Below are positions 1-42,538 of a stretch of DNA of 64,000 bases, in pieces. Position 1 is the first letter of the stretch, and each line of letters opens with the position of its first letter. The notes under the pieces are model-generated. The model had not been told where the DNA came from. It ran no database searches and worked only from the letters and a program-made list of their open reading frames with translations. The position numbers were made by a program, and so were the translations under genes. Source of the stretch: Solidesulfovibrio magneticus RS-1 (GTDB taxonomy: Bacteria; Desulfobacterota; Desulfovibrionia; Desulfovibrionales; Desulfovibrionaceae); NCBI RefSeq assembly GCF_000010665.1, contig NC_012796.1, forward strand, positions 1,674,001 to 1,738,000. The letters are read 5' to 3'.

Positions 1-414
1 CTGTGGTTTCTGGCTCGCGACAAGGCCAACCACGGCTTCAGGGACCGCCGGGGTGAGGTGCTTTTCATCGACGCCCGCAAGCTCGGTCATCTGGTTGACC
101 GCACCCGTCGGGAGTTCTCGGCCGAGGACATCGCCAAGATAGCTGGCACCTACCACGCATGGCGCGGTGAGAAGGACACGGGTGAATATGAGGACGTGCC
201 CGGCTTCTGCAAGGCAGCTTCGTTGGAGGAGATCAAGGGCCATGGCTATGTGCTGACGCCGGGGCGCTATGTCGGGGCCGAGGTCGTGGATGATGACGAC
301 ACGCCCTTTGAGGAGCGATTTGTCGCGCTCAAGGAGAGGCTGGAGGGGCAGTTTGTCGATGCGGAGAGGTTGACTGCGACGATTCGGGTACGGTTAGGGC
401 TTTTAGATGTCTAG
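1..414 (+). CDS. hsdM: Type I restriction-modification methyltransferase subunit HsdM, C-terminal fragment
   Basis: The reading frame is open from the first base of the window and stops with TAG at 412-414, so only the last 137 residues are seen. The tail has the typical HsdM ending, including the segment [19 protein letters not shown] and a closing helical region ([19 protein letters not shown]) used for contact with HsdS. The catalytic NPPF motif lies upstream of the window. The next gene, hsdS, starts inside the last 8 bases, so the two are translationally coupled. HsdM is the N6-adenine methyltransferase subunit of the M2S modification complex. The family call follows from these tail motifs plus the hsdS and hsdR neighbours. 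Confidence 0.85.
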
Positions 415-1690
415 GCATCCAGTAGTTCACACTCCAGTAGAAGCGTCTGAGTGGGCAGTCCGGCGAAGATGGTTTTGCCTCGCTGAGCTTGCTGACGGTA
501 TTTTTGATTGTCCTCATTCAACGCCAGAGCTTACTGCAGATGGACCATTCCTTGTCAGATCGCAAGACATACGCACTGGTTTCGTAGATATTTCTAAGCT
601 CGCACATGTTGCAGAAAAAACTTTTCTTGACAGGGTGTCTAAGGCTACTCCTGAGGAGGGGGACATACTCTACAGCAGAGAGGGTACATATTTTGGCATA
701 GCTGCCGAGATTCCAAAAGGACTTAGAGTTTGCCTGGGGCAGCGCATGGTTCTCATTAGGCCAAAACGGTCAAGGTTGGCTTCTCGTTTTTTAAGATACT
801 GGCTTAATTCTGGAATATTATCGCGGCATTTGCATGGTTTTCGGGATGGCACTGTCGCAGAACGCCTTAATATGCCGACAATCCGAGCCATCCCTGTTCC
901 GGATTTTCCCTTGAAAGAACAACAAGCCATCGCCGCCATCCTCGGCTCCCTCGACGACAAAATCGACCTGAACCGCCGCATTAACGAAACCCTTGAAGCC
1001 ATGGCCCGGGCGATCTTCAAGGATTGGTTCGTGGACTTCGGCCCTACGCGAGCCAAGATGGAAGGCCGCGCCCCCTACCTCGCCCAGGAGATTTGGAATT
1101 TGTTCCCGGATGCGCTGGATGACGAGGGGAAGCCAGTGGGGTGGGAATACAGGCCGGTCGGAGATTTCGCTGAATTACGTGGTGGGAAACAGCTTGAGAA
1201 GGAAAAAATTGCTGCGTGTGGTGCCATCCCTGTCTTTGGAGGCGCAGGCATAATGGGCTACACAGATAGTTACAATGCCGATGGATTTGTGATAGCTGTA
1301 GGAAGGGTTGGAGCTTATTGTGGGCAATTTTTCGCACACCGCGGACGTGCCTGGATAAATAACAACGCATCCTTAATTCGTCAACGCGACCAATGTAATG
1401 GTGAATGGCTTTATTGTGCGCTTCGACATGCAGATATCGATGTCATAAAAAAAGGGGCAGCACAGCCTTTTGTTTCAAACACCGACGTGGCGAACTTGCC
1501 TATCATTTGGCCGGGACATGCTACTCTTTCCACATTGAGTAAGATTTTGGTTCCTTTGATGGTGAAAGCCGAACACAATAACGCCGAGATCGACAGCCTC
1601 GCCCAAACCCGCGACTTCCTTCTTCCCAAGCTCATGTCCGGCGAAATCCGCGTCAAGGACGCCGAGAAAGCCGTGGGGGCCGTGCTCTGA
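407..1690 (+). CDS. hsdS: Type I restriction-modification specificity subunit HsdS
   Basis: 427 residues, normal for HsdS, which recognises the bipartite target and holds the complex together. There are two variable target-recognition domains (about residues 15-165 and 245-375), each followed by a conserved helical spacer; the central one starts [19 protein letters not shown] near residue 169 and the C-terminal one contains [17 protein letters not shown]. The conserved spacers are GC-rich like the neighbours, while both recognition domains (about 410-900 and 1190-1560) are clearly AT-richer. This mosaic base composition is what domain swapping between strains would leave. It overlaps hsdM by 8 bases and the following gene by one base (TGATGA). 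Confidence 0.93.
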
Positions 1691-2424
1691 TGAAGGTCCT
1701 CTTTCTCGACGAGTCCGGCGACCACAACCTGTCCGTGATCGACCCGCAGTACCCCATGTTCGTCCTGGGCGGCGTGATCATGGGAAAATCCTATGCCGAG
1801 GGAGCGCTGGCCCAGGCCTTGGCGGAGTTCAAGCAAGAGATGTTCGGGCGAACGGACATCGTCTTGCACACCGCTGACATCACCAGGAACCGTAACGGAT
1901 TCGAGGAGCTAAAGAATTCATCCTTCCGGGCAAAGTTCTACACCGGCCTGAACGCCTTGCTCCGTCAGCTAGATTTCTCAGTTGTCGCTTGCGCCATCCA
2001 TAAGGACCAGCACCTCAGCCGCTACGGCGTCGCCGCCCTGGACCCGTACCTGCTCAGTCTCGACGTGCTGGTGGAGAGGTTTTGCTTTGATGTCGGCCGG
2101 GTGAGCGGGGGAGGGCTGATCGTGGCTGAAAAACGAGACTCGACCCTGGATCGCCAGCTTGACCTTGCTTGGTTGAACCTCAAAATCCAAGGCACGCGGT
2201 TCGTCCAGGCCCATGACATCGAGGACCGCATCTTGGGACTCAATCTCCGCGCCAAGAAGGACAACATCGCCGGCCTTCAATTGGCCGATCTGGTAGTTTC
2301 GCCCATAGGTCGCCACGTCTTGGGCAAGCCGGATAAAGAAGACTGGTTCATCGTTCAGGAAAAATTCAGACGAAACCGACGAGGCGTCATCGAGGGGTAC
2401 GGGCTTGTGACCTTGCCCAAATAA
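1690..2424 (+). CDS. DUF3800 domain protein embedded in the hsd operon
   Basis: 244 residues. It opens with [13 protein letters not shown], the acidic DESGD start that marks DUF3800 proteins, and has the family's late motif LQLADLVVSPIGRH near residue 196. DUF3800 proteins are predicted RNase-H-like enzymes of unknown role, often found in mobile and defence islands. The start overlaps the hsdS stop by one base, so it is expressed with the modification genes, and hsdR follows after 112 bp. A role in restriction is possible from position but nothing in the sequence proves it. The N-terminal acidic cluster and length argue for an intact protein. Confidence 0.85.
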   Translation: MKVLFLDESGDHNLSVIDPQYPMFVLGGVIMGKSYAEGALAQALAEFKQEMFGRTDIVLHTADITRNRNGFEELKNSSFRAKFYTGLNALLRQLDFSVVACAIHKDQHLSRYGVAALDPYLLSLDVLVERFCFDVGRVSGGGLIVAEKRDSTLDRQLDLAWLNLKIQGTRFVQAHDIEDRILGLNLRAKKDNIAGLQLADLVVSPIGRHVLGKPDKEDWFIVQEKFRRNRRGVIEGYGLVTLPK

Positions 2425-2536
2425 AAAGGGGCCAGCCCCCGCTACGCAGTGACCAACCCACAGTTGGTAAATCAGACAGCGGGGGGAATTAGTCAAGGCC
2501 AAAATTTCGATTTCGGAAAGAATCAGGGGAGGGGCC
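2425..2536. promoter_or_regulatory. Intercistronic hairpin between the DUF3800 gene and hsdR
   Basis: The 112-bp gap contains a nested inverted repeat: CCCCCGCT near 2436 pairs with AGCGGGGG near 2479, enclosing CCAAC/GTTGG. It lies before the strong ribosome site AGGGGAGG of hsdR. Such a structure could lower HsdR synthesis relative to the modification subunits, which is a useful order of expression for a restriction system; this role is inferred. Confidence 0.4.
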
Positions 2537-5500
2537 ATGGCTTTTATCTCCGAAGCAGACGTCGAGGGCGTCCTGCTCGAAACGCTGGGCAGCCTCGGCT
2601 ACGCCGCCACCTCAGACCTCCAAATCGGCCCTGACGGCCATGCCCCGGAGCGTGAGGCGTACTCAGACGTCTTCCTTCAAAAACGTCTGGAAGCCGCTGT
2701 GGAGGCCCTTAATCCTCATATCCCGGCCGAGGCCCGGCACGACGCCATCCGGGCGCTGATCGCCACCGAATTCCCTAATCTGACCGAAGAGAACCGCCGC
2801 CTCCATCGCATGATGGTCGAAGGTGTGGACGTCGAGTTCCCCCGAGACGACGGCTCCATTGCCGGCGACAAAGTGCGCCTGATCGACTTTGACACCCCGG
2901 ATAACAACGACTGGCTGGCGGTCAACCAGTTCACGGTGATTGAAGGAAAGATCAACCGCCGCCCCGATGTGGTGGTCTTCGTCAACGGTCTGCCACTTGG
3001 CGTCATCGAACTCAAGAACCCCGGCACCGAGAACGCCGACCTGGAAGCCGCCTTCAACCAGTTGCAAACCTACAAGACCCAGGTCACGTCCCTTTTCCGC
3101 ACCAATGCCGTCCTCGTTACCTCCGATGGCCTCCAAGCCCGCATCGGCTCCCTGACGGCCAACCAGGAACGGTTCATGCCCTGGCGCACCACGGACGGGA
3201 AAGAGGTCGCCAAGAAAGGACTGCCCGAACTCCACGTGCTTATCGAGGGGGTCTTTGAGAAGCGCCGGTTCCTGGACCTGATCCGCGACTTCACCGTCTT
3301 CGGTGAAACCGGCTCCGGCATTGCCAAGATCATCGCCGGCTACCACCAGTACCATGCCGTGCGCCATGCCGTGGCCCATACCGTCAAGGCGGCCGCGCCC
3401 AAGGGTGACCGTCGGGCAGGAGTCATCTGGCATACCCAGGGCTCGGGAAAAAGCCTGCTCATGGCTTTTTACGCCGGCCAGTTGGTGCGATGTCCTGAAC
3501 TCGAAAACCCGACCATCGTGGTCATCACCGACCGCAACGATCTCGACGACCAGTTGTTCAACACCTTCTCCATGTGCCGTGACCTCATCCGGCAGACGCC
3601 CATCCAGGCAACGAACCGCGAGGATTTGCGCAAGGCCCTCAACCGTGCGTCCGGTGGCGTCATCTTCACGACCATCCAAAAATTCACACCCGAGAAGGGC
3701 GACTCGGAATACCCCTTGCTCACCGACCGGCGCAACGTGGTGGTCATCGCTGACGAAGCCCACCGGAGCCAGTACGGGTTCAAAGCCAAGGTGGCCCAAA
3801 AGACCGGGGAGATCGCCTACGGATTCGCCAAATACCTGCGGGATGGCCTGCCCAATGCCTCCTTCATCGGCTTCACCGGGACGCCCATTGAAAAAGACGA
3901 CGTGAACACCCCGGCGGTCTTCGGTCACTACATTGACATTTACGACATCAGCCGCGCCGTCGAGGACGGAGCCACGGTGCCGCTCTATTATGAAAGCCGT
4001 CTTGCCCGGATCGAACTCTCCGCCGAGGAAAAGCCCAAGATCGACGAAGAAATCGAAGAGTTGACCGAGGACGACGCCGTCAGCGAGCAAGAGGCATTGA
4101 AGCGGAAGTGGGCCACGGTCGAAGCCCTGGTGGGCGCTGAAAAACGGCTCAAGCTCATCGCCCAGGACCTTGTTCGGCATTTCGAGGATCGGGTGGCGGC
4201 CATGGACGGCAAGGCCATGGTGGTCTGTATGAGCCGCCGCATCTGTGTCGCCCTTTACAACGAAATAGTGGCCCTACGGCCGGCGTGGCACAGCGATGAT
4301 GACAATGAGGGCGTGGTCAAAGTCGTCATGACCGGTTCCGCGTCCGACCCGGCGGACTGGCAACCCCATGTCGGCAACAAAGCCCGACGAGAATTGCTGG
4401 CCAAACGGGCCAAGGCTCCGAAGGACACGCTGAAGTTGGTGCTCGTCCGCGACATGTGGCTGACAGGCTTTGACGCCCCATCCATGCACACCATGTACGT
4501 CGACAAGCCCATGAAGGGCCACGGCCTCATGCAGGCCATTGCCCGGGTCAACCGGGTTTTTCGTGACAAGCCGGCCGGGCTCGTCGTTGATTACATTGGC
4601 ATCGGGCAGAGCCTCAAAAACGCCCTGGGGCAGTACTCAGCTTCCGACAGGAGCCAGGCAGGCATTGACGAAGGAAAGGCCGTCGCCGTCATGATGGAGA
4701 AATTTGAAATCGTGACCGCGATGTTCCATGGGTTCGATTACCAGCGAGCCATGACCGGGACCGCCCATGACCGGCTCATGGTCATGGCCGAGGCCCTGGA
4801 TTGGATTCTGGAACAGCAGCATAAGGCCGCCGAGAAGGAAACCGACGACGGCAAGAAGAAAGAAGCCCATCGTCGTTTTCAGGATGCCGTGCTGGCTCTG
4901 TCCAAGGCGTTCGCCCTGGCCGCAGCCAGTGATGAGGCGCGGTCCATACGAGACGAGGTCGCCTTCTTCCAAACCATCCGCGCCGCGTTGACCAAGACCG
5001 GCATCGGAGGAGGAAAAACCACGGCTGAGCGTGAGTTTGCGGTCCAGCAACTCATCAACCGGGCCGTGGCTTCGACCGAGATCGTGGACATCCTCGCCGC
5101 CGCCGGCTTGAATACACCGGATATTTCCATCCTGTCGGATGAGTTCCTGGTCGAAGTGCAGCAGATGGAGAAGAAGAACCTCGCCCTGGAGGCGCTGAAA
5201 AAGCTCCTGAATGGCGAAATTCACTCCCGCACCCGGACCAACGTGGTCGAAACCAAGAAATTCTCCGAGCGCCTGGAGAAAGCCATTGCCCGGTACCACA
5301 CCAACGCCGTCAGCACCGTCGAGGTCATCCAGGAGTTGATCAACCTCGCCAAGGACATTCGGGAGGCTCGGCTTCGCGGTGAGGCACTTGGGCTGTCCCA
5401 GGACGAGATCGCTTTCTATGATGCCCTGGCCGAGAACCAAAGCGCTGTAGATGTCATGGGGGACGCATCCTTGCGGGTCATCGCCCATGAGCTATTGACC

Positions 5501-5677
5501 AGCCTCAAGGGTAGCATCACCGTCGATTGGGCACACCGGGAAAGCGCCCGTGCCAGGATGCGAGTGCTGGTGAAGCGGATTCTTAAGCGGCATGGCTACC
5601 CGCCCGACCTCCAGGACGCAGCCATCCAGGTGGTCCTACAGCAAGCGGAGGCGTTGTCGGCGCAGTGGGCCGCCTGA
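2537..5677 (+). CDS. hsdR: Type I restriction endonuclease/translocase subunit HsdR
   Basis: 1046 residues, a normal HsdR length. The N-terminal PD-(D/E)xK nuclease core is visible around residues 140-165 (PDVVVF followed by GVIELKNP). The SF2 motor follows: Walker [12 protein letters not shown] near residue 298, motif [11 protein letters not shown] near 402, motif [13 protein letters not shown] near 445 and motif [12 protein letters not shown] near 666. The last 250 residues form the helical domain that docks on HsdM. The start ATG has AGGGGAGG 5 bases upstream. HsdR translocates and cuts unmodified DNA together with the upstream HsdM/HsdS. All key motifs are present, so the enzyme looks intact. 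Confidence 0.96.
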
Positions 5678-7062: not shown

Positions 7063-7605
7063 GCACAATACGCACGGCGACAAGGCTTTCAACCAAGGAC
7101 AGAACATGCGAGCCGAGGCCTCATGCCAGATAAAGGGCAAGCCCAACGACCAGCGAAAACGCCGCTCCACCTAGCCTTATGCGACAGGGGGACTTCGACG
7201 CCGCCGGCTCCGCCCAGTATCCAGGCGCGTATAATGGACGCTCACAGCCACAGACAGGAGACGCCCCGCAAAGCCTGGCAGGCCCAAAAAAAGCACTTGA
7301 CCCAATGGCTTGACTTCTGTTTGTGCAATGCTCATTATTTCACTTGAAACGACTTTTGCAAGGAGGTGGGCCTCGTAAAAAACGGACGAGAATTGTATTT
7401 GTAGCTGACAAGAATTGATTTTTCTCTCCTCCCACCTGCATTAGCCCCTGAATCCTCGCCAATCGTCCCGCACAAGCAGGCCAAAACACGTTGGCTGAGG
7501 ATTTTTGTTGTCTTCAACGCGACGTCCGACGTTTTTCAAATAGGCGGACGGTGCAGGATTCTTGTGGTGGTTCACGAGCCCATGTGTGCTACCTGGAGAA
7601 AAATC
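7063..7605. other. 540-bp leader region before the replication gene
   Basis: No open frame with a convincing start. It contains a promoter-like pair at 7310-7338 and, downstream of it, a ribosome-site-like AAGGAGGTGGG near 7359 whose AGGTGGG can pair with CCCACCT near 7432, so the leader may fold. The tiny frame starting at that GTG encodes only 12 codons. What regulates it is unknown. Confidence 0.45.
7310..7338 (+). promoter_or_regulatory. Candidate sigma70-type promoter for the primase gene
   Basis: TTGACT at 7310-7315 and CATTAT at 7333-7338 are separated by exactly 17 bases. Transcription would start near 7345 and leave a 5' leader of about 260 nt before the gene at 7606. Confidence 0.5.
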
Positions 7606-10596
7606 ATGAACGGGCAAATCGATTATTACGGGCTGTTTAAGTCCATCTTCCGTGGCCGGGACGACGTTGTCCCCAAGCACTTCACAACTGCCGGCACGAA
7701 CGGCAAAACCGGGCGCTCAGGCTACGCGCCAATTTGCAACAACTTCTGGAAAACAGGCATTTGCCCCAAGGCTTCAGGTGATAAGACCGCCTGCGACAAG
7801 TGTTCCTCCCGCGACTACGTCCCCTTGTCCGACGCGCTGCTCCAGGGGCATTTCGAGGGCAAGCACATCCTCGGTGTTTATCCCTTGCTCCCGGACGGGA
7901 CATGCTGGTTCGTCGCCGCCGACTTCGATGACCACAGTGGCGACCGCAATCCCCTCGCTGATGTCCTGGCCTATGCCGAAGCCCTGACCACGGCAGGGCT
8001 CACCCCCTACGTCCTGCGCTCGAAGTCCGGCAAGGGCTTCCACGTCTACTTATTCTTCGCAGCCCCTGTGCCTGCCTGGAAAGCTCGCCGTGTCGCCTTC
8101 TCTTTGCTTCAGGAGGCGGGGCTTGTCGGTGAAGACGTGTCGGTTAATAGCTTCGACCGTCTGTTCCCGAACCAGGATGAACTCAGCCCTACGAAGCCGC
8201 TGGGGAACCTGATCGGACTGCCCTATCAAGGTGAAGCATCCAAATTCGGCCACACCCTGCTCCTGGACCCTGCATCTGACTACACGACGGCTTTCACCGA
8301 ACAACTGGCCGTGCTCACTTCGCTCATCCGCGCTAGCGAAGCCGACCTCGACACCATCATCGCGGCCCGGGGCTTGGCCAAGGATGCTCCCAAGGTGGCG
8401 ACTCCCTCAGCCCTCGGTGGTGCTGTCCCTGCGACGACAAAACCGATCCAGGTACCGGCCTTGATTCCTGAGACAAAACGCAACGACACCCTGTTCCGGG
8501 TGGCGGCTTCCTTACATGCAAAAGGTTTGTCGGATCAGGCCATCCGCGAAGCCCTGCTGGCTGAAAATGCCGCCAAGTGTGTGCCGCCCCTGGACACGCA
8601 AGAGGTCGAAGACATCGTCCAGAACGTGACCGCCCGCTATGCCAAAGGAGTCTCGGCGGCTGTCGCAGTGCCTGGAGCGCTGGCTTCTTTGGATGCGACA
8701 ATGACCGCTGCGTCGGGTAATGCCGCCCCTACCCAACTGCCCACTATTCACTCCATGCTCCCCGATGCGCCGGTATCCGCCAATGCCGTTGTGCCCGGGA
8801 AAATGAACCTCAGCCTTCATGACGGGATTGCGGCGTGGGTCGATAACGGAAAAGGCCAAGCCGGGTTTAAGCACGTCTTTCCCGTTGCCATCGTCCTCGT
8901 CGAACGTTTGAAATGCGTCCACACCGGCAAGGAGCAGGTTAAGCTGGCGTGGCACATGGACGATGCTTGGCATTTTCAGATTGTCGACCGCAAAGTCATC
9001 GCCGACACGCGTGATATCGTTTCATTGGCAAGCTACGGACTCCCTATTACTAGCGAGCACAAGGAGTTCCTCGTCAAGTATCTCTCGGCATACGACTTTG
9101 TAAACCGCCGATGCATCCCGTTAATTCAAGTTAGCAGTCGTTTTGGCTGGCAAGACGGCAACGAATCCTTTCTCTGGGGCCGCAACCTCATCACACAAGA
9201 TGGAATGTTGTCCGCCGCCGCGATCAATACCAAAAACGGCCCATCAGCCATCGGAGCCGCCACTATCGTCTTCCGTGGCAGTGACGACGGGGATGAACAG
9301 GTGGCGGACGGTTTTGTCTGCTCAGGTTCGTTAACGGGTTGGCTCGCCACAGCCAATCGCGCCATCGTCCATCCTATCCCCTTCGTCGTCATGCTGGCTT
9401 CATTCGCGCCGCCGCTGCTGACCTTGATCGGTGCGAGCAACTTCGTCGTCGAAACAGCGGGCATCACCTCCACGGGCAAGACCTCGACCCAACGTTTGGC
9501 CGCTTCGGTCTGGGGCTGTCCCGACGAACGTGCTGAAGCGTCCGTATTGCACACCTGGGATACCACACGCATCTGGGTCGAGCGCACCGGTGGCCTGCTC
9601 AATGGTCTCCCCTTGATCCTCGACGACACCAAGCGTGTCTTCTCGAGCCTGCCGCAGAAAGAAGCACGTGCTCTGGTGAATGCCGTGGTCTACGCCTACG
9701 CATCAGGGAAAGGCCGTGGCCGTGGAAGTGTCCAGGGAACACAACGCACCGGATCATTCCGCTCTGTCTTGATCTCGTCGGGTGAGGAGCCCTGCACCGG
9801 GGCCAGCACACAACATGGCGGCGCTCGTGCTCGCGTCCTTTCGCTCTGGGGAGCACCGTTTGGCTCAGCTCCGCAACCGGATTTGGTCAAGGATGTGAAC
9901 GTGACCGTGATGGCAAACTACGGCTTCGCCGGGCCTTATCTGGTCCGCCATCTGCTGATGCACCGCGCCTACTGGGCTGTGTGGAAGGAGGAGTTCCAGC
10001 AGCTTCAAGGGTTCTATGCGACCCTGGCCGAGGGCAATAACGTGGCCGGCCGTTTGGCTGAAATCTTCGCCGTCCTTGAGTTCACCGCCCTTCGTCTGCT
10101 GGAGGCACTTCCGGGGCTGGTCCTTCCACGACCGACCCGGGAGGTCTTGCGGGGTATTTGGGATGCGACAGTTGCCGACGCCGCCCAAGATGCCGACCGT
10201 GCCCTGGCCGCCCTGCGTGATGTAGCGGAATGGGCCATTGCCAACCAGCAGAAGTTCTACGGCCGCCATAAGTCCGATAGTACTGGACACCCGATTGAGC
10301 CCCATGGCGGCTTTGTTGGGCGCTTTGACGCCGGTGATTCCTTTACTTATATATCCTTCCTGCGCAAGCCGTTATGTGACCTCCTTGAGAAGTTTGGGCA
10401 CGATGTCTCGGCCACTGTCCGTGTCTGGTCCGAGCGCGGTTGGCTCCTGGCCGATTCAAAAGGTCGAAACCAGCGCCAAGTTCGCATAAACGGGACAAAG
10501 CCCGCTGCCTACTGCATCAAACGCGCCGCCCTTGAAACCGAAGTGGGCATGGACTTCCGTCCCGATCAAGAACCGCCAAATCCGTTCGGCTCCTAG
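7606..10596 (+). CDS. Primase-type (TOTE/AEP-like) and DUF927 ATPase fusion, element replication protein
   Basis: 996 residues from the ATG at 7606 (TGGAGA 6 bases upstream). The N-terminal part matches archaeo-eukaryotic-type primases: a zinc-like cluster C44, C53, C63, C66, the metal-binding AADFDD (D106, D108) and SGKGFHVYLFF with H146. A helical linker (about 240-330) follows, then a DUF927-type helicase/ATPase region (about 390-690) with a P-loop-like STGKTSTQR near residue 624 and LPLILDDTKRV as a Walker B-like stretch. Such fusions drive replication of phage satellites and integrative elements. It is flanked downstream by repeated 8-bp motifs that could be its origin. Naming it TOTE-like is a fold-level judgement; the DUF927 part is the surer assignment. 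Confidence 0.85.
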   Translation: MNGQIDYYGLFKSIFRGRDDVVPKHFTTAGTNGKTGRSGYAPICNNFWKTGICPKASGDKTACDKCSSRDYVPLSDALLQGHFEGKHILGVYPLLPDGTCWFVAADFDDHSGDRNPLADVLAYAEALTTAGLTPYVLRSKSGKGFHVYLFFAAPVPAWKARRVAFSLLQEAGLVGEDVSVNSFDRLFPNQDELSPTKPLGNLIGLPYQGEASKFGHTLLLDPASDYTTAFTEQLAVLTSLIRASEADLDTIIAARGLAKDAPKVATPSALGGAVPATTKPIQVPALIPETKRNDTLFRVAASLHAKGLSDQAIREALLAENAAKCVPPLDTQEVEDIVQNVTARYAKGVSAAVAVPGALASLDATMTAASGNAAPTQLPTIHSMLPDAPVSANAVVPGKMNLSLHDGIAAWVDNGKGQAGFKHVFPVAIVLVERLKCVHTGKEQVKLAWHMDDAWHFQIVDRKVIADTRDIVSLASYGLPITSEHKEFLVKYLSAYDFVNRRCIPLIQVSSRFGWQDGNESFLWGRNLITQDGMLSAAAINTKNGPSAIGAATIVFRGSDDGDEQVADGFVCSGSLTGWLATANRAIVHPIPFVVMLASFAPPLLTLIGASNFVVETAGITSTGKTSTQRLAASVWGCPDERAEASVLHTWDTTRIWVERTGGLLNGLPLILDDTKRVFSSLPQKEARALVNAVVYAYASGKGRGRGSVQGTQRTGSFRSVLISSGEEPCTGASTQHGGARARVLSLWGAPFGSAPQPDLVKDVNVTVMANYGFAGPYLVRHLLMHRAYWAVWKEEFQQLQGFYATLAEGNNVAGRLAEIFAVLEFTALRLLEALPGLVLPRPTREVLRGIWDATVADAAQDADRALAALRDVAEWAIANQQKFYGRHKSDSTGHPIEPHGGFVGRFDAGDSFTYISFLRKPLCDLLEKFGHDVSATVRVWSERGWLLADSKGRNQRQVRINGTKPAAYCIKRAALETEVGMDFRPDQEPPNPFGS

Positions 10597-11060
10597 TCCA
10601 GGTTTGCTATTCTAAGTGGGTTGTCCTGAGGGTTTTGGGGCTCTCAGGACAGCCTCAGTACAAAAAAATCTAATAATTTTATACAGTTAAATGATTTTGT
10701 ACTGAGAAAATCGTGTACTGAGCACCCAGCATACCCTCCCCTGGAAGGGTGGCACCGCGCCCGGCCCCACCGAATAAAAACAGTTTTTGGGGGAGACCCC
10801 CGGGGGCCTCAGTCTCAGTACCTTTTGAGATAAAATATTGAAATTATTTAAAAAAAGTGTACTGAGCGCGTCCTGAGGGGTCAGTACACCACAGGGAGGG
10901 CCACTTCCGATGTATAAAAAATTATTTAAATCATATCTCTACTTACATGGCAGTCGAAAAACGACCTGTTCGGTGCGATATCTATTCAAAGTTTCCGATA
11001 GATATTCATGAACGACAATATTTTACTATATTATCAAAAAATTCGTGACAAGTTATTTTG
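10597..11060. other. AT-rich intergenic segment with repeated 8-bp motifs
   Basis: No gene is seen. The segment is strongly AT-rich in patches (10662-10700, 10830-10858, 10910-11060) and separates the replication gene from the RNA candidate. It starts with an inverted repeat GTCCTGAG/CTCAGGAC (10623-10650) and then holds the GTACTGAG motif set listed separately. AT-rich DNA plus short repeats behind a primase/helicase gene is the layout of a replication origin; this is inferred. Confidence 0.5.
10654..10887. repeat. Iteron-like GTACTGAG motifs (candidate origin)
   Basis: The 8-mer GTACTGAG or its reverse complement CTCAGTAC occurs exactly at 10654, 10699, 10715, 10814 and 10859, and as a 7-base match (TCAGTAC) at 10881. 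Five full copies in 230 bp, in both orientations and in AT-rich DNA, are far more than chance. They lie just behind the primase/ATPase gene. A role as binding sites for the replication initiator or for a regulator is inferred. Confidence 0.55.
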
Positions 11061-11099
11061 TAACATTTGGCAAAACCAGTCCATAAGTTGGTCGTGTGT

Positions 11100-11900
11100 G
11101 CCTTGAAGTCTCGACAGTCCAGTTCCGATGTTAGTTCGGATGGCTTTGCTGCCCAAGCAAAACCAAGGCTAAAAAACCTCACCTTCTCCGTGGATATCAC
11201 GCTGCGTCGTCCTCATCGAACGCGGATGCCGGAGAAGTGCATACTCGTCACGGAGCGATCCGGGCGGGGGAGTTGCTGATGCCGAAGCACTGGCCCGTAG
11301 TCCATCAATTGGACGAAACCGCTGGCCCATACGTCGACGAAAACCCGGCCGTTTGAAGTCCGTGGCTCACAAGCCTCAAGGGACGCCACCGAAGGGAATG
11401 GTGCGAACCCTGACGTATGCGGCGATTAGGTGCGGGACGGCGCTGACGTGACTGTCGATATGACCAAGGAAAGTCTCCCTGTCTTGCTCTTATATTAAGA
11501 CGCAAAGGCGTGAGGGCCTGAGACATCGAGATGGCTGCGTATCTGTAAGGGATACACCGGAGTGACGCTTCTAAATGCTAAAATCCTGCAAATAAAAAAA
11601 TTACGAGCTTTTTGAATACAAATTATAGTAAAATTAGTTCAAAACCACCGCAGATTGCGGACAATACATCATCTTTAGTGCTTTTTGCTATAAAATCAAA
11701 CCTCAAATGCGTCACTCCGGCGTCGCTGGATGCGGGAAAACCGCCTGTCCAGTGGCAAACGGGGGTCGGTACTGGCAACAGTCCTTCCTATCGTAAGGCC
11801 TCATCGCCGTCGCTCCTACCGGGGCCTCGGCAATGGGGCTGGGACTGTTTTCAACAGGGATTGTCCGGCTTCGGCTGGAGCAATCCCTTTTCCTTTTTTT
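11100..11900 (+). ncRNA. Candidate large structured RNA of about 800 nt, unknown class
   Basis: There is no coding frame, yet the region contains many complementary segments: TCCGA/TCGGA (11124/11136), CTTCTCCG/CGGAGAAG (11183/11230), GTCCA/TGGAC (11300/11310), CATACGTC/GACGTATG (11328/11412) with AGGG..CACC/GGTG..CCCT nested inside, GTCTC/GAGAC (11473/11520) enclosing GTCTT/AAGAC, a 12-bp long-range pair (11557-11568 with 11709-11720), CTGGA-GCGG/CCGC-TCCAG (11726-11752) and CAGTCC-AGGCC/GGCCT-GGACTG (about 11779-11847). It ends at a strong terminator on the plus strand. The size and mobile-element location resemble the large phage RNAs GOLLD and ROOL, but I cannot assign it to any known class. 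The 5' end is a guess. Confidence 0.5.
11857..11900 (+). terminator. Strong rho-independent terminator ending the RNA candidate
   Basis: GGGATTG (11857-11863) pairs with CAATCCC (11881-11887) with a further inner helix around a GGCTTCGGCT apex, followed by TTTTCCTTTTTTT. No protein gene lies within 1.2 kb upstream, so this terminator implies a non-coding transcript. Confidence 0.85.
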
Positions 11901-11993
11901 CATAGCTGGACCGGCGTCCGAAACCGTGACCACTCCGGCTGGGCCAGGGTATCCTTACTCCATTTATTCCATTTTAAACGGGAGGATGCCAAC

Positions 11994-12374
11994 ATGGACG
12001 ACAACCGGAACCTGATTTTCTCTTACACCCGCGCCCAGGCCATCGAGGACGGCGTCTTGATCGACGTGACCGCCCAAGCGAAGGAGGCCGGCTTCAAAAT
12101 CCACACCGTCGTCACCGACAACCTGTTCCACACCTACATCGCGCCGCCGGCTGGCCTGGAAGGCGAGGGGCAAAGTGTTTTCGGGCGGCTCCACGATCTC
12201 TTCATGGTCCTGCGAACGGCCATCCTCGGCAAATCCGCTACGGATTACCTCGAACTTGACGTTCTTTTCCTGATGGCACCCGGTCGCCGCGAGCGTGTTC
12301 GGATCATCACTGTCGTCGGTCCTGGTGATGACGGCGAACCGGTCATGACCTGCATGCTGGAAGGCGACGATTAG
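11994..12374 (+). CDS. DUF6573 family protein
   Basis: 126 residues from the ATG at 11994, which has GGGAGGATG upstream. The opening NLIFSYTRAQAIEDGVLIDVT is the signature of DUF6573, a family of small proteins of unknown function carried by plasmids and integrative elements. It is acidic and predicted alpha/beta, ending GDDGEPVMTCMLEGDD. An upstream in-frame extension overlaps the terminator at 11857-11900 and is therefore unlikely to be translated. It supports the mobile-element nature of the region. Confidence 0.8.
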   Translation: MDDNRNLIFSYTRAQAIEDGVLIDVTAQAKEAGFKIHTVVTDNLFHTYIAPPAGLEGEGQSVFGRLHDLFMVLRTAILGKSATDYLELDVLFLMAPGRRERVRIITVVGPGDDGEPVMTCMLEGDD

Positions 12375-12759
12375 CTCGGCTGGTCCTATGGGTGGGGTCT
12401 TCTCCTGTGCAGGGCAGCGGTCGCTATTTTCAAAATGATAGCGAGGGCCAGGCTCCCTTTGGGGGTGCCTTTTTCCCGGATCCCTTTTGGGGACGCCCCT
12501 TCCAGGCCCCCGGAGCCCCCTATACTCCCCATTCCTGGGGTTTTGAGGGCTTCCCCGGGGTTTTCTGTCCCCCAGACCCAAAAGCCCCGGAAATCGCATC
12601 CTCGGCCCAAAGCCGCTTTTTCAGGGAGAATAAGTTCGCAGTCACATGGTCCAACCTGCTGATTTTGCGTGAAAAACGCTAGGTTTGTGCGCTTTTTTGA
12701 CAGAATTCTGCTGTTATTACAGATATTTAATACAAAACAACTACAAGAAGGAGTTCGCC
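12375..12759. other. 385-bp gap with GC-rich low-complexity DNA and a possible promoter
   Basis: The left part (about 12450-12600) is rich in CCCC/GGGG runs with no supported gene; open frames here have no ribosome site. The right part turns AT-rich and contains a consensus -35 hexamer TTGACA at 12697-12702 upstream of the AbrB-like gene, though no good -10 box sits at the ideal distance. Confidence 0.4.
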
Positions 12760-13119
12760 ATGGCCAAGAAGCCCGAAGCCACCGAGACTGAATCCACAAG
12801 AATCGAATCTCGATATCAACCCGGCCTGCTGCGCCAATGCATCTCCGAAAACCTCTCGGCAGACTCCATGATGGAGCGGCTGGGCATCCTGCACAAGCAG
12901 ACCTTGCGCAAGCACTTGCTCCGACTCATGGCCGAGGACAAAACCTTCTACGACATTGAAGGCCTCTTCCTGCGTGGCAGCAACCTCCCCAAGGTCAATC
13001 CCAAGGGTAGGCTGACGCTGAACCTGCGCGGCATCATCATCGCCGGCCAGGAGGTACGCGAAGGTGACGTCTTTCAGGTCCAGATCGAGGAAGACCGCAT
13101 CGTCATCACCCGAGGATAA
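12760..13119 (+). CDS. Small regulator with AbrB/SpoVT-like C-terminus
   Basis: 119 residues; ATG at 12760 with AAGAAGGAG 7 bases upstream. Residues 20-65 form a helical segment (LLRQCISENLSADSMMERLG then QTLRKHLLRLM) resembling a helix-turn-helix. The C-terminal 45 residues, from NPKGRLTLNLRGI to GDVFQVQIEEDRIVITRG, fit the swapped-hairpin AbrB fold, which binds DNA as a dimer. The combination suggests an element-borne transcription factor. A terminator follows at 13132. Targets are unknown; the nearby recombinases are candidates. Confidence 0.6.
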   Translation: MAKKPEATETESTRIESRYQPGLLRQCISENLSADSMMERLGILHKQTLRKHLLRLMAEDKTFYDIEGLFLRGSNLPKVNPKGRLTLNLRGIIIAGQEVREGDVFQVQIEEDRIVITRG

Positions 13120-13382: not shown

Positions 13383-13940
13383 ATGAAGGTCCAGCCCTTT
13401 ACCGAATTGCGCCACGTGCGCAGCATCAAGCGACTTTTGGTCGACAGCCCAAGGGACAAGCTCCTGTTTGTCATGGGCGTCAACTCCGGCTTGCGGGTTC
13501 AAGACCTGCTGGCTCTCCATGTCGCCGCCGTGCGAGGCTTGAAGCTCGGTGACCGCATCTCCATCCAGGAGAAGAAAACCGGCAAGCCCAACGTGCTCAT
13601 CGCCAACAAGGAAATTTTGGCGGCCCTTGAGGAGTACTTCGCCATCGCACAGCCCGAGGACAGGCACTACCTGTTCAAAAGCCGCAAGACTGCGAACTCG
13701 CCCCTGACAACTCTGTCCGTCACCAAGAAGGTGAAGTCCTGGGCCGCCGCCATCAACCTCAAAGGCAACTTTGGCGCGCATACCCTGCGCAAGACCTGGA
13801 CCTACCACCAGCGCCGTGAATTCGGCGTCTCCTGGGAGGTCTTGGCCAAGCGGCTGAACCATTCCAGCCCATCCGTGACTCGGCGCTACCTCGGAATTCA
13901 AGACGAGGAGGTGGAACAGGTGCTCATGAATGCTCTGTAA
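13383..13940 (+). CDS. Short tyrosine recombinase (catalytic domain only)
   Basis: 185 residues, against 300-400 for a full integrase; only the catalytic domain is present. The active-site set can be traced: R38 (SGLRVQ), K65 in the beta-hairpin, H133 and R136 (AHTLRKT), H160 (LNHSS) and Y169 (RRYLGI). The start ATG has AGGAGG 7 bases before it. The arm-binding and core-binding N-terminal domains are missing, as in small recombinases of some plasmids and elements that act on dimer resolution or inversion. Because all catalytic residues are kept it does not look like decay. A terminator follows at 13969. Confidence 0.85.
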   Translation: MKVQPFTELRHVRSIKRLLVDSPRDKLLFVMGVNSGLRVQDLLALHVAAVRGLKLGDRISIQEKKTGKPNVLIANKEILAALEEYFAIAQPEDRHYLFKSRKTANSPLTTLSVTKKVKSWAAAINLKGNFGAHTLRKTWTYHQRREFGVSWEVLAKRLNHSSPSVTRRYLGIQDEEVEQVLMNAL

Positions 13941-14490: not shown

Positions 14491-15537
14491 ATGTCGGTCC
14501 ATAAGAGAAGCAACAACGGCACCTATTACGTGGCCTACCGTGACGGCAACGGCCGCCAGCATACTCGATCCTTTGGGAAGGGACGGGACGGGAAGCGTGA
14601 AGCCGAGAAGTTCGATGAGCAGGTCAAGGCCCACAAGGTAATCGAAGTTCCTTTGGAGCCTGCCCCGCCTACCTCTGGGAAAAAGATTTTTCTTGATGAA
14701 CTGTCCCAGATGTACATCAACGCCAAGAAAGCGGAGGGAAAGTCAATCCGCCGGCTCAAAGAGCTTGCCGTCATCCTCGAACGGCACATCATTCCCGCCT
14801 TCGCTCAACGCCCAGTTGAGCAGATACGCTTCGACGAAATCATCAGCCTTGTCGGAAAGGTCTATGCGAAACGCTCGCCCGTGACGCGGGGCCGGTATCT
14901 CGCATACCTCAAGACCGTCTTCCAGTTCGGCGTGGACAACGAGTTGATCGAAAAGAACCCGCTGCGCCGCTGGAAGAAGCCCAAGGAGCGTCCCCGTGAC
15001 ACCAGACTCACCGTCACCGACTTGAACAAGATCAAGGCCGCAGCAGAGCCTCATTTGGCCTGGGCTATCGAGGTCGCCTGGAACCTCGGCGTGCGGACAG
15101 GACCATCGGAGCTGCTTGCTTTAAAGTGGAGCGATGTGGACTGGGAAAACCAGACGGTCACCGTCTATGCTACCAAGACCAAGACCCGCAGGATCATACC
15201 CATCTCTGACGAGTTCCTTGCGCGGCTTCGGGAAGTGAAGGAGGCCGCCCAGTCGCCCTTCATAGTCGAATACCAAGGGCGGCCGGTGAAGCAGATCAGC
15301 CGGGCCATGAGGACGGCGTGTCGGCGGGCCGGGATCACCTACCCCGTGGTCCTGTACGACGTCCGGCACCTATTCGCGACGACCCTCCTGCGGGAAGGCG
15401 GCGATTTGTCTGCGGTGAGCAATCTGATGGGGCATTCCTCGATCCAGATGACCGCGAACAACTACTACCACCTGCTGGGCGATGAAAAACGCAGGACTAT
15501 CGCTAAGTTGCCGCGACTGGAGCAAGATGCCCGCTGA
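14491..15537 (+). CDS. int: Tyrosine-type site-specific integrase
   Basis: 348 residues with the full integrase layout: N-terminal arm-type binding (1-50, basic), SAM-like core-binding domain (about 65-160) and catalytic domain (about 170-340). Catalytic residues are R202 (GVRTGPSE), the beta-hairpin K229/K231, R292, H315 (MGHSS) and the nucleophile Y325 or Y326. The usual first His of the HxxR box is a tyrosine (YDVRH, Y289), a tolerated variation in this family. The gene points at tRNA-Pro, 180 bp away, so it is the likely enzyme for island integration. Confidence 0.95.
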   Translation: MSVHKRSNNGTYYVAYRDGNGRQHTRSFGKGRDGKREAEKFDEQVKAHKVIEVPLEPAPPTSGKKIFLDELSQMYINAKKAEGKSIRRLKELAVILERHIIPAFAQRPVEQIRFDEIISLVGKVYAKRSPVTRGRYLAYLKTVFQFGVDNELIEKNPLRRWKKPKERPRDTRLTVTDLNKIKAAAEPHLAWAIEVAWNLGVRTGPSELLALKWSDVDWENQTVTVYATKTKTRRIIPISDEFLARLREVKEAAQSPFIVEYQGRPVKQISRAMRTACRRAGITYPVVLYDVRHLFATTLLREGGDLSAVSNLMGHSSIQMTANNYYHLLGDEKRRTIAKLPRLEQDAR

Positions 15538-15717: not shown

Positions 15718-15760
15718 TGGTCGGGGCGAGGTGATTTGAACACCCGGCATCCTGCTCCCA
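15718..15760. other. Presumed attachment site (att) in the tRNA-Pro 3' half
   Basis: tRNA-targeted integrases recombine in the T-arm/acceptor or anticodon part and restore the tRNA with an identical copy. The tRNA is intact and its 3' end borders the integrase side, so one att copy should lie here. The second copy was not found in the window, consistent with an island that continues to the left. Exact limits are unknown. Confidence 0.5.
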
Positions 15761-15794
15761 AAGCAGGCGCGCTACCAGTCTGCGCCACGCCCCG
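15718..15794 (-). tRNA. tRNA-Pro(UGG)
   Basis: On the minus strand the 77-nt cloverleaf is complete: acceptor CGGGGCG/CGCCCCG with discriminator A and encoded CCA, D arm GCGCAGACTGGTAGCGCG, anticodon stem CCTGC/GCAGG with loop TTTGGGA (anticodon TGG, proline), and T arm CGGGTGTTCAAATCACCTC-like with the TTCAAAT loop. The encoded CCA end at 15718 faces the integrase gene, which marks this tRNA as the island integration target. Confidence 0.95.
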
Positions 15795-42225: not shown

Positions 42226-42340
42226 GACAGGTAACCTCCACGGAAATGGAGGGCTCTTGAGGATAGCGGACGGGAGACGAAAAAGCGCCCGAAGCCGCGT
42301 CCCGGCCGGCAAAAGCCCTCGTTGCCGGCGGGATGTGCCA

Positions 42341-42505
42341 GAACCCGGGCAGGTCTTCCGGCTTGTTCCATCGGCCCCGGCCTTCCCGAGAAGTGCTTCC
42401 CAGTGGCGCGCGTGGAGGCCGACCTTTGCGTGGAACTGACGGCGGCGGGACCGCTCCCGATTTGAACGGGATTCCCTATTAAGCCCGTGAGGGCGCCCAG
42501 GTCGA
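42341..42505 (-). promoter_or_regulatory. Cobalamin riboswitch
   Basis: On the minus strand the conserved core elements occur in order: AATAGGGAATCCCG with AAATCGGGAGCGGTCCCGCC (P3-P6 core), then GCGCCACTGGGAAGCA, GAAGGCCGGGGCCGATG and the 3' box GGAAGACCTGCC, with the outer stem formed by CTGGGC/GCCCGG. This is the B12-box riboswitch. Downstream, the hairpin GCCGGCAA/TTGCCGGC and a TTTTT run (about 42280-42330) may be the expression platform. It should shut down cbiK, the ABC genes and cobI when cobalamin is plentiful. Confidence 0.93.
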
Positions 42506-42538
42506 TTTCCGGGGAGGTAGCCGGGGGGCGGCCGCCTG

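Follow-up and report, generated by a model that had tools for sequence, protein, structure and literature searches.

The window analysed here, a stretch of 64,000 nucleotides from Solidesulfovibrio magneticus RS-1, appears to carry a free-standing non-coding RNA gene that is built on the core of a group II ribozyme and belongs, together with a small conserved gene (F0), a recombinase and an integrase, to a module of integrative elements. We have moderate confidence in this explanation taken as a whole, including the mechanism it proposes, in which the RNA branches and serves the maintenance of the element. Descent of the RNA from a group II ribozyme is, in itself, very probable. The RNA contains no protein gene, does not interrupt one, and returns at a constant position in a family of mobile elements of sulfate-reducing bacteria, which suggests that the ribozyme has been kept for a job other than the ordinary spread of introns.

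Layout of the RNA gene

The RNA lies in a gap of about 1.4 kb, devoid of any credible gene, between a TOTE-type primase gene and a DUF6573 gene. The original prediction described 11100-11900 as a large structured RNA without a credible gene, adjoining the replication gene of a mobile element, and this description is borne out. Indeed, the only open reading frames of at least 80 amino acids that overlap 11100-11900 encode 97 (11612-11905) and 214 amino acids (11730-12374), and the latter extends into the DUF6573 gene. The nearest upstream gene on the plus strand has its end at 10596, which leaves about 1.3 kb to the terminator (at least 1.2 kb had been claimed) and 0.5 kb to the 5' junction. 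The RNA is laid out as follows.

11077-11901, plus strand: whole RNA gene, with closing helix, six group II-like domains, 3' hairpin and terminator (homology and structure; predicted transcript ends)
11077-11082, plus strand: 5' strand (CAGTCC) of the proposed closing helix P0 (by eye; analogous helices in the subfamilies)
11090-11094, plus strand: IBS1-like stretch GGTCG, potential partner of TGGCC at 11323-11327 (suggestive only)
11096-11100, plus strand: 5' junction GTGTG (comparison of loci)
11101-11469, plus strand: domain I, with basal helix 11101-11105/11465-11469 (CCTTG/CAAGG; subfamily structures and comparison of loci)
11323-11327, plus strand: EBS1-like stretch TGGCC (suggestive only)
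11470-11533, plus strand: domain II, with GTCTC 11473-11477 facing GAGAC 11520-11524 (position relative to subfamily helices; window pairs by eye)
11539-11555, plus strand: domain III hairpin, within the conserved motif GGCTGCGTATCTGTAAGGGATAC (comparison of homologues)
11557-11720, plus strand: domain IV, with a 12-bp stem (11557-11568/11709-11720) and an A+T-rich loop without open reading frame (ORF list, repeat scan, subfamily structure)
11724-11754, plus strand: domain V, with a CGC triad (G-U at the second pair), stems of 8 and 4 bp, a 2-nt bulge and a GAAAA loop
11759-11794, plus strand: domain VI, with basal stem ACGG/TCGT and a bulged A at 11790
11798-11839, plus strand: hairpin P7, 3' of domain VI (fold; analogous to helix 27 of subfamily B and helix 29 of subfamily A)
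11842-11847, plus strand: 3' strand (GGACTG) of the proposed closing helix P0 (by eye)
11857-11901, plus strand: terminator, hairpin 11857-11887 and T-rich tail (fold and terminator scan)

The complementary pairings listed in the original prediction are all present in the sequence. Domain V is the hairpin formed by CTGGA-GCGG/CCGC-TCCAG, and the 12-bp pair joining 11557 and 11709 is the stem of domain IV, which an inverted-repeat scan of the window also returned (15 nt, 93%). A terminator-like hairpin with a T-rich tail is present where the plus-strand terminator had been predicted. A mechanical terminator scan lists part of 11857-11901, in a background of 10 such sites per 6 kb for 7.0 expected. 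The candidate terminator is better supported by the hairpins with a T-tract that also lie 3' of the RNA in subfamilies A (helix 30) and B (helix 28).

Homologues, fold and probable kinship with group II ribozymes

A DNA search of 198 related genomes gave matches in nine, this genome included. A nearly full-length copy of the window RNA (92% identity) is present in one relative (G010), and two copies of the 3' half (90 and 89%) lie at contig ends in another (G005). The remaining matches are short (23-38 nt), and the same layout recurs around several of them. Three loci of the homologue comparison (L004, L009 and L012) began as such short matches near domain V; L010 is a 23-nt match only. A scan for the domain III motif, which misses subfamily B, returned six stretches from the genome collection (four from Solidesulfovibrio aerotolerans, one from Desulfovibrio sp. 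DV and one, L068, from Aeromonas cavernicola) and one from the viral collection (L074). L068 and L074 look like coding DNA by eye and were rejected as family members. No report of this RNA was found among open-licence papers.

Read on the plus strand, 11050-11905 gives a better fold than its shuffled versions (z of -5.65, none of 20 shuffles as good), and so does the minus strand (z of -3.72, again none of 20). The fold is considered to go beyond chance because homologues carry compensatory changes. Two subfamilies were aligned separately, with near-identical sequences omitted (9 of 11 members for A, 10 of 11 for B). They share a common plan: a closing helix, a long domain I, domains II and III, a long-looped domain IV, domain V, a domain VI that has a bulged A, a further hairpin, the closing strand and the terminator. 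The helices analogous to P0 lie at alignment positions 9-22/803-816 and 14-20/775-781 in A and B, respectively.

In support of the covariation expected by the original prediction, two-sided changes are seen at 50 of 222 pairs in subfamily A and 50 of 221 in subfamily B, for 28.9 and 29.7 in shuffles; none of 500 shuffles reaches either value, with the reservation that kinship of the sequences alone can lift pair counts above shuffles. Slid versions of the two structures give only 3-10 pairs with a two-sided change, a comparison biased in favour of the true structures, which were derived from the same alignments. The fraction of paired alignment cells is 97.6% (A) and 95.6% (B). Further pair types do not rise above shuffles (64 and 279 of 500 shuffles reach the observed value in A and B), and no two-sided change occurs in the closing helix of either subfamily. 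In the 35 loci scored, domain I has one of four basal helices, CCTTG/CAAGG, CTTTG/CAAAG, CCGTG/CACGG or CCTTA/TAAGG; the search demanded a complementary partner, which was found at a similar position each time. The conclusion that 11077-11901 encodes a conserved, structured plus-strand RNA with its own predicted terminator holds on these comparisons.

The idea that this RNA fits no known class has to be given up: its fold is that of a group II ribozyme, with six ordered domains, a domain V and a domain VI with a bulged A. The six domains follow each other from I to VI in both subfamilies and were mapped onto the window by homology, partly by eye. The Rfam search that had been proposed gave a divided answer. 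The window RNA has no hit at the Rfam cut-offs, and no group II model matches it even at E≤5, yet relatives match RF00029 (group II intron). Seven of ten related loci scanned do so: L014 scores 40.9 bits, over the cut-off of 40 bits, L003 39.9, L011 38.7 and four others 28-33. The matches to animal microRNA and baculovirus families that appear below threshold in the window were judged to be chance. In this genome, RF00029 matches seven times at E≤10, always below the cut-off, and all seven are members of the RNA family. Matches were found in 10 of the 14 genomes of the genus, over the cut-off in two; in one of these (G008) the score is due to ordinary introns with a reverse transcriptase. The Rfam models of domains I-IV gave no match at E≤1 in the ten related loci. 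A hit to a known intron had been named as evidence against the candidate RNA, and this is half the case: relatives match RF00029, but the RNA is no typical mobile intron.

Domain V was also searched with a pattern derived from this RNA family (the GC of the triad, the inner stem, a 2-nt bulge and a GNAA loop). It has a single match on the two strands of the window, at 11724-11754, and none in 20 mononucleotide shuffles. A model of domains V-VI trained on 20 family members (R1) gave 43 matches in 45 chosen sources, with the triad AGC in 30 and CGC in 13. Among 36 distinct rows, 94.4% of the 432 domain V cells are paired and two-sided changes occur at 9 of 12 pairs, in an alignment fitted to the model, which leans toward pairing. 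The outer two pairs, at the site of the triad, are lost in 11 and 12 of the 36 rows.

Because the domain VI pairs supplied to R1 sat in the wrong columns, R1 was not counted as evidence for the pairing of domain VI, which was assessed separately. The strand that follows the bulged A finds its full 4-bp pairing upstream in 26 of 33 rows, versus 293 of 952 mismatched rows (31%). This test used 33 of the 43 matches, eight near-identical ones, L202 and L130 being omitted. Of the seven misses, two (L117 and L017) stem from the anchor choosing a later motif. An automatic stem search on the 43 matches chooses other stems in some rows.

Eleven loci with weaker R1 matches were translated. Five of them carry RVT_1 (L202, L218, L211, L203 and L206), and the group II maturase domain GIIM is over its cut-off in four of these five; in the other six, the longest frame is something else. 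Thus, training on these RNAs yields a model that picks up true group II introns. For the intron of L022/L026, R1 reported no match at E≤0.001.

The element around the RNA

The genes that accompany the RNA in the window are the following.

7564-10596, plus strand: TOTE-type primase with DUF927 (family F8), the replication gene of the element
11994-12374, plus strand: DUF6573 gene (family F11)
12760-13119, plus strand: F0, a small conserved gene without Pfam match, the constant neighbour of the RNA
13383-13940, plus strand: F2, a small tyrosine recombinase (Phage_integrase)
14491-15537, plus strand: F1, an integrase

The window was compared with 17 loci reached via the RNA. In these 18 loci the order is an upstream gene of family F3, F7 or F8 (11, 4 and 3 loci), the RNA, F0, F2 and F1. 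F0 was called in 16 loci, F2 in 14 and F1 in 15; both F0 and F2 of the window are present, although longer wrong frames masked them in the first family comparison. The original prediction had pointed to homologous regions next to DUF6573 or DUF927 genes. Homologues do exist, but the DUF927-type primase accompanies only 3 of 18 loci, and DUF6573, also found in only 3 of 18, was rejected as a partner of the RNA. The steady neighbours are instead F0, the small recombinase and the integrase. The F3 protein of L059 has Prim-Pol and Replicase domains, and some F3 genes are in the opposite orientation; F7 has no Pfam match, and any role given to it would be a guess. Subfamily A is found with all three upstream families, which indicates that the RNA travels with F0, F2 and F1 and not with one replicase.

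R1 detects 13 copies of the RNA in this genome, all upstream of F0. Because loci reached through the RNA are a biased set, F0 was also searched on its own throughout the 14 genomes of the genus. This gave 47 hits above 100 bits, two of them at contig ends, and the RNA lies upstream of 39 of the 45 scorable genes, in one case about 2.4 kb away. It is absent upstream of the other six (G001:C17:64293, G003:C42, G011:C4:9836, G001:C11:51521, G003:C1:611593 and G001:C8:161635), of which G003:C42 has only 2.2 kb of contig upstream. Two of the 41 RNA matches in the genus are not among the 39 linked to F0: one is at a contig end (G007:C34) and the other is an isolated remnant without F0 (G004:2452522). 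No RNA was found within about 6 kb of the seven distant F0 homologues of this genome.

R1 was run on 348 genomes of the class, and the 41 matches of the genus fall in 10 of its 14 genomes. Outside the genus, there are eight matches of at least 50 bits, in seven genomes from four other genera of the family; all eight lie 0.35-1.05 kb upstream of F0, and R1 had been trained on none of them. Matches that fall short of 50 bits are more widespread and also occur in six genomes of other families (395 genomes of the phylum sampled). Seen from the other side, only 8 of 30 F0 genes outside the genus (E≤1e-20) have an R1 match beside them.

Other features of these loci were noted. Between the primase gene and the RNA, 10654-10889 contains several direct and inverted copies of GTACTGAG/CTCAGTAC; these iteron-like repeats are a candidate origin and are apparently not conserved in the G010 copy. 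A motif of the AGATATT type (GATATT type) occurs at 10993 and about 12720, upstream of the RNA and of F0. It is found upstream of the RNA in 7 of 16 loci and of F0 in 4 of 16 (chance values of 0.08 and 0.03). It is thus not general, and may in some elements act as a promoter or operator common to the RNA and F0. The G+C-rich non-coding stretch 12516-12623, after the DUF6573 gene, has 71-81% matches near the RNAs of L002, L003, L008 and L014. F4 genes, as in L059, encode a conserved protein of about 300 amino acids without Pfam match, upstream of F3 in 10 of 18 loci. A tRNA-Pro (15718-15794) was rejected as attachment site: no exact repeat of 16 nt links it to another place in the window, and a tRNA is present in 3 of 20 big loci. 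To the left of the element, 58-5677 holds frames which by eye resemble a type I restriction-modification system, and a cobalamin riboswitch (90 bits) lies on the minus strand at 42331-42515.

Possible function and comparison with known systems

The RNA is probably catalytically active. The triad and the putative branch-site A are largely kept, and the 3' splice consensus is not. The 5' consensus of group II introns is GUGYG. The RNA begins with GTGTG in the window and in L005, and with GGGNG in the other 33 of the 35 loci scored (two of 37 were unscored). An AY at the expected 3' end of an intron is found in only 3 of 33 rows. The candidate pairing GGTCG/TGGCC (IBS1/EBS1) exists in the window, and its first pair fails in subfamily B and in L152.

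The RNA might be an ordinary group II intron without open reading frame that still splices, unaided or with host factors, within a short non-coding transcript, and whose precise loss is hard. The branch-site A, the triad and the domain order are consistent with this, as are the GTGTG 5' end and possible EBS1-IBS1 pairing of the window; moreover, in the part of the Zimmerly and Semper review drawn on here (PMC4424553), C.te.I1, an ORF-less intron from a genome without related intron-encoded protein, is reported to self-splice robustly. However, the scarcity of the 3' AY speaks against splicing, the flanks pair together, with a hairpin and a terminator after them, and the ORF list of the window shows no interrupted gene. 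We consider this reading unlikely.

A scaffold or regulatory RNA without catalysis, acting in packaging, copy number or the control of F0 or the integrase, in which the group II fold was kept and the chemistry lost, is still less probable. It would suit an element-bound RNA with its own terminator, which has lost the outer pairs of domain V in about a third of the rows and has no 3' splice consensus, but an AGC or CGC triad and the bulged A persist across diverged subfamilies. It is highly improbable that the RNA is a decayed, functionless intron or a DNA-only feature such as an origin or a recombination site: the lack of an intron-encoded protein and of a reverse transcriptase in this genome, the scores mostly below the Rfam cut-off and the isolated remnant in a relative would fit, but this reading appears largely contradicted by covariation, with 95.6-97.6% of cells still paired and many two-sided changes, and the RNA is conserved beside F0 in five genera.

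The explanation we favour is that of a branching RNA of the element. The RNA would be transcribed alone from its own gene and would then fold into a core with domains I-VI in the usual order, without intron-encoded protein, closed by the terminal helix and followed by a hairpin and the terminator. Domain V would hold the catalytic metals, and the bulged A of domain VI (11790) would attack the 5' junction at 11096. The product would be a branched RNA that retains the 3' hairpin and terminator tail, and joining of the flanks would not be what selection acts on. This branched RNA may serve the maintenance or control of the element, perhaps bound to F0.

Branching without exon ligation is a tentative proposal, drawn from the pattern of conservation: the 5' junction region, domain V and the bulged A persist, the 3' consensus is lost, and the flanks are paired and followed by a terminator, which points to selection for branching and not for exon joining. 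The linkage with F0 and the recombinases, whatever the kind of replicase, argues for a role in element maintenance or control. Several observations go against this explanation: the window has no Rfam hit, the two outer pairs of domain V fail in 11 and 12 of the 36 rows, GGGNG replaces GUGYG at the 5' end outside the subfamily of the window, some F0 elements lack the RNA, and the closing helix shows no two-sided change.

Large RNAs such as GOLLD, ROOL and HEARO, with which the candidate had been compared, have a similar size and mobile-element setting, but none of them has an Rfam match in the window. Mobile group II introns with a reverse transcriptase (L022 in G008, L202 in G348) have a related domain V-VI, and R1 matches L202, among others. 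Such introns have a reverse transcriptase frame, whereas domain IV of the present RNA has no open reading frame. Neither TIGR04416 nor RVT_1 matches anything in this genome at E≤0.001. Among the genomes of the genus, TIGR04416 passes its cut-off in just two, G002 and G008; six others have matches that stay under it. The ordinary introns with a reverse transcriptase are L022, L031, L037 and L042 in G008, where they are four nearly identical copies, two within 2 kb, and L026 in G002.

ORF-less introns are called rare in bacteria in the consulted part of the 2015 review by Zimmerly and Semper (PMC4424553). Those it describes, such as C.te.I1, likewise have a group II core without intron-encoded protein, in a genome without a related one. 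The present RNA differs in that its copies are numerous, lie outside genes as fixed parts of a single element family, and have a closing helix and a terminator but no conserved 3' AY.

The nearest in kind is the CP group II RNA (PMC8637638). As far as the portion of that paper used here goes, this RNA stands alone, is about 900 nt long and has group II domains but no intron-encoded protein; it has no known role, often resides on plasmids and often has a protein gene nearby. It shares with the present RNA the free-standing state, the group II domains and the lack of an intron-encoded protein. The partner gene and the hosts differ, and the order of the domains is D5-D6-D1-D2-D3-D4 in the CP RNA, as given there, versus D1 to D6 here, with V-VI lying 3' of I-IV. 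The present RNA may, still tentatively, represent a new class: a free-standing group II-derived ribozyme gene in canonical order that has become fixed as a core part of integrative elements across several genera within one family. It would carry out only the branching step, with the branched RNA employed in the life cycle of the element and no reverse transcriptase. With 13 copies in this genome and 41 matches spread over 10 of the 14 genomes of the genus, most of them under the Rfam cut-off, this family offers a way to test whether group II ribozymes can last and be selected independently of retromobility, and it adds an unpermuted case to that of the CP group II RNA.
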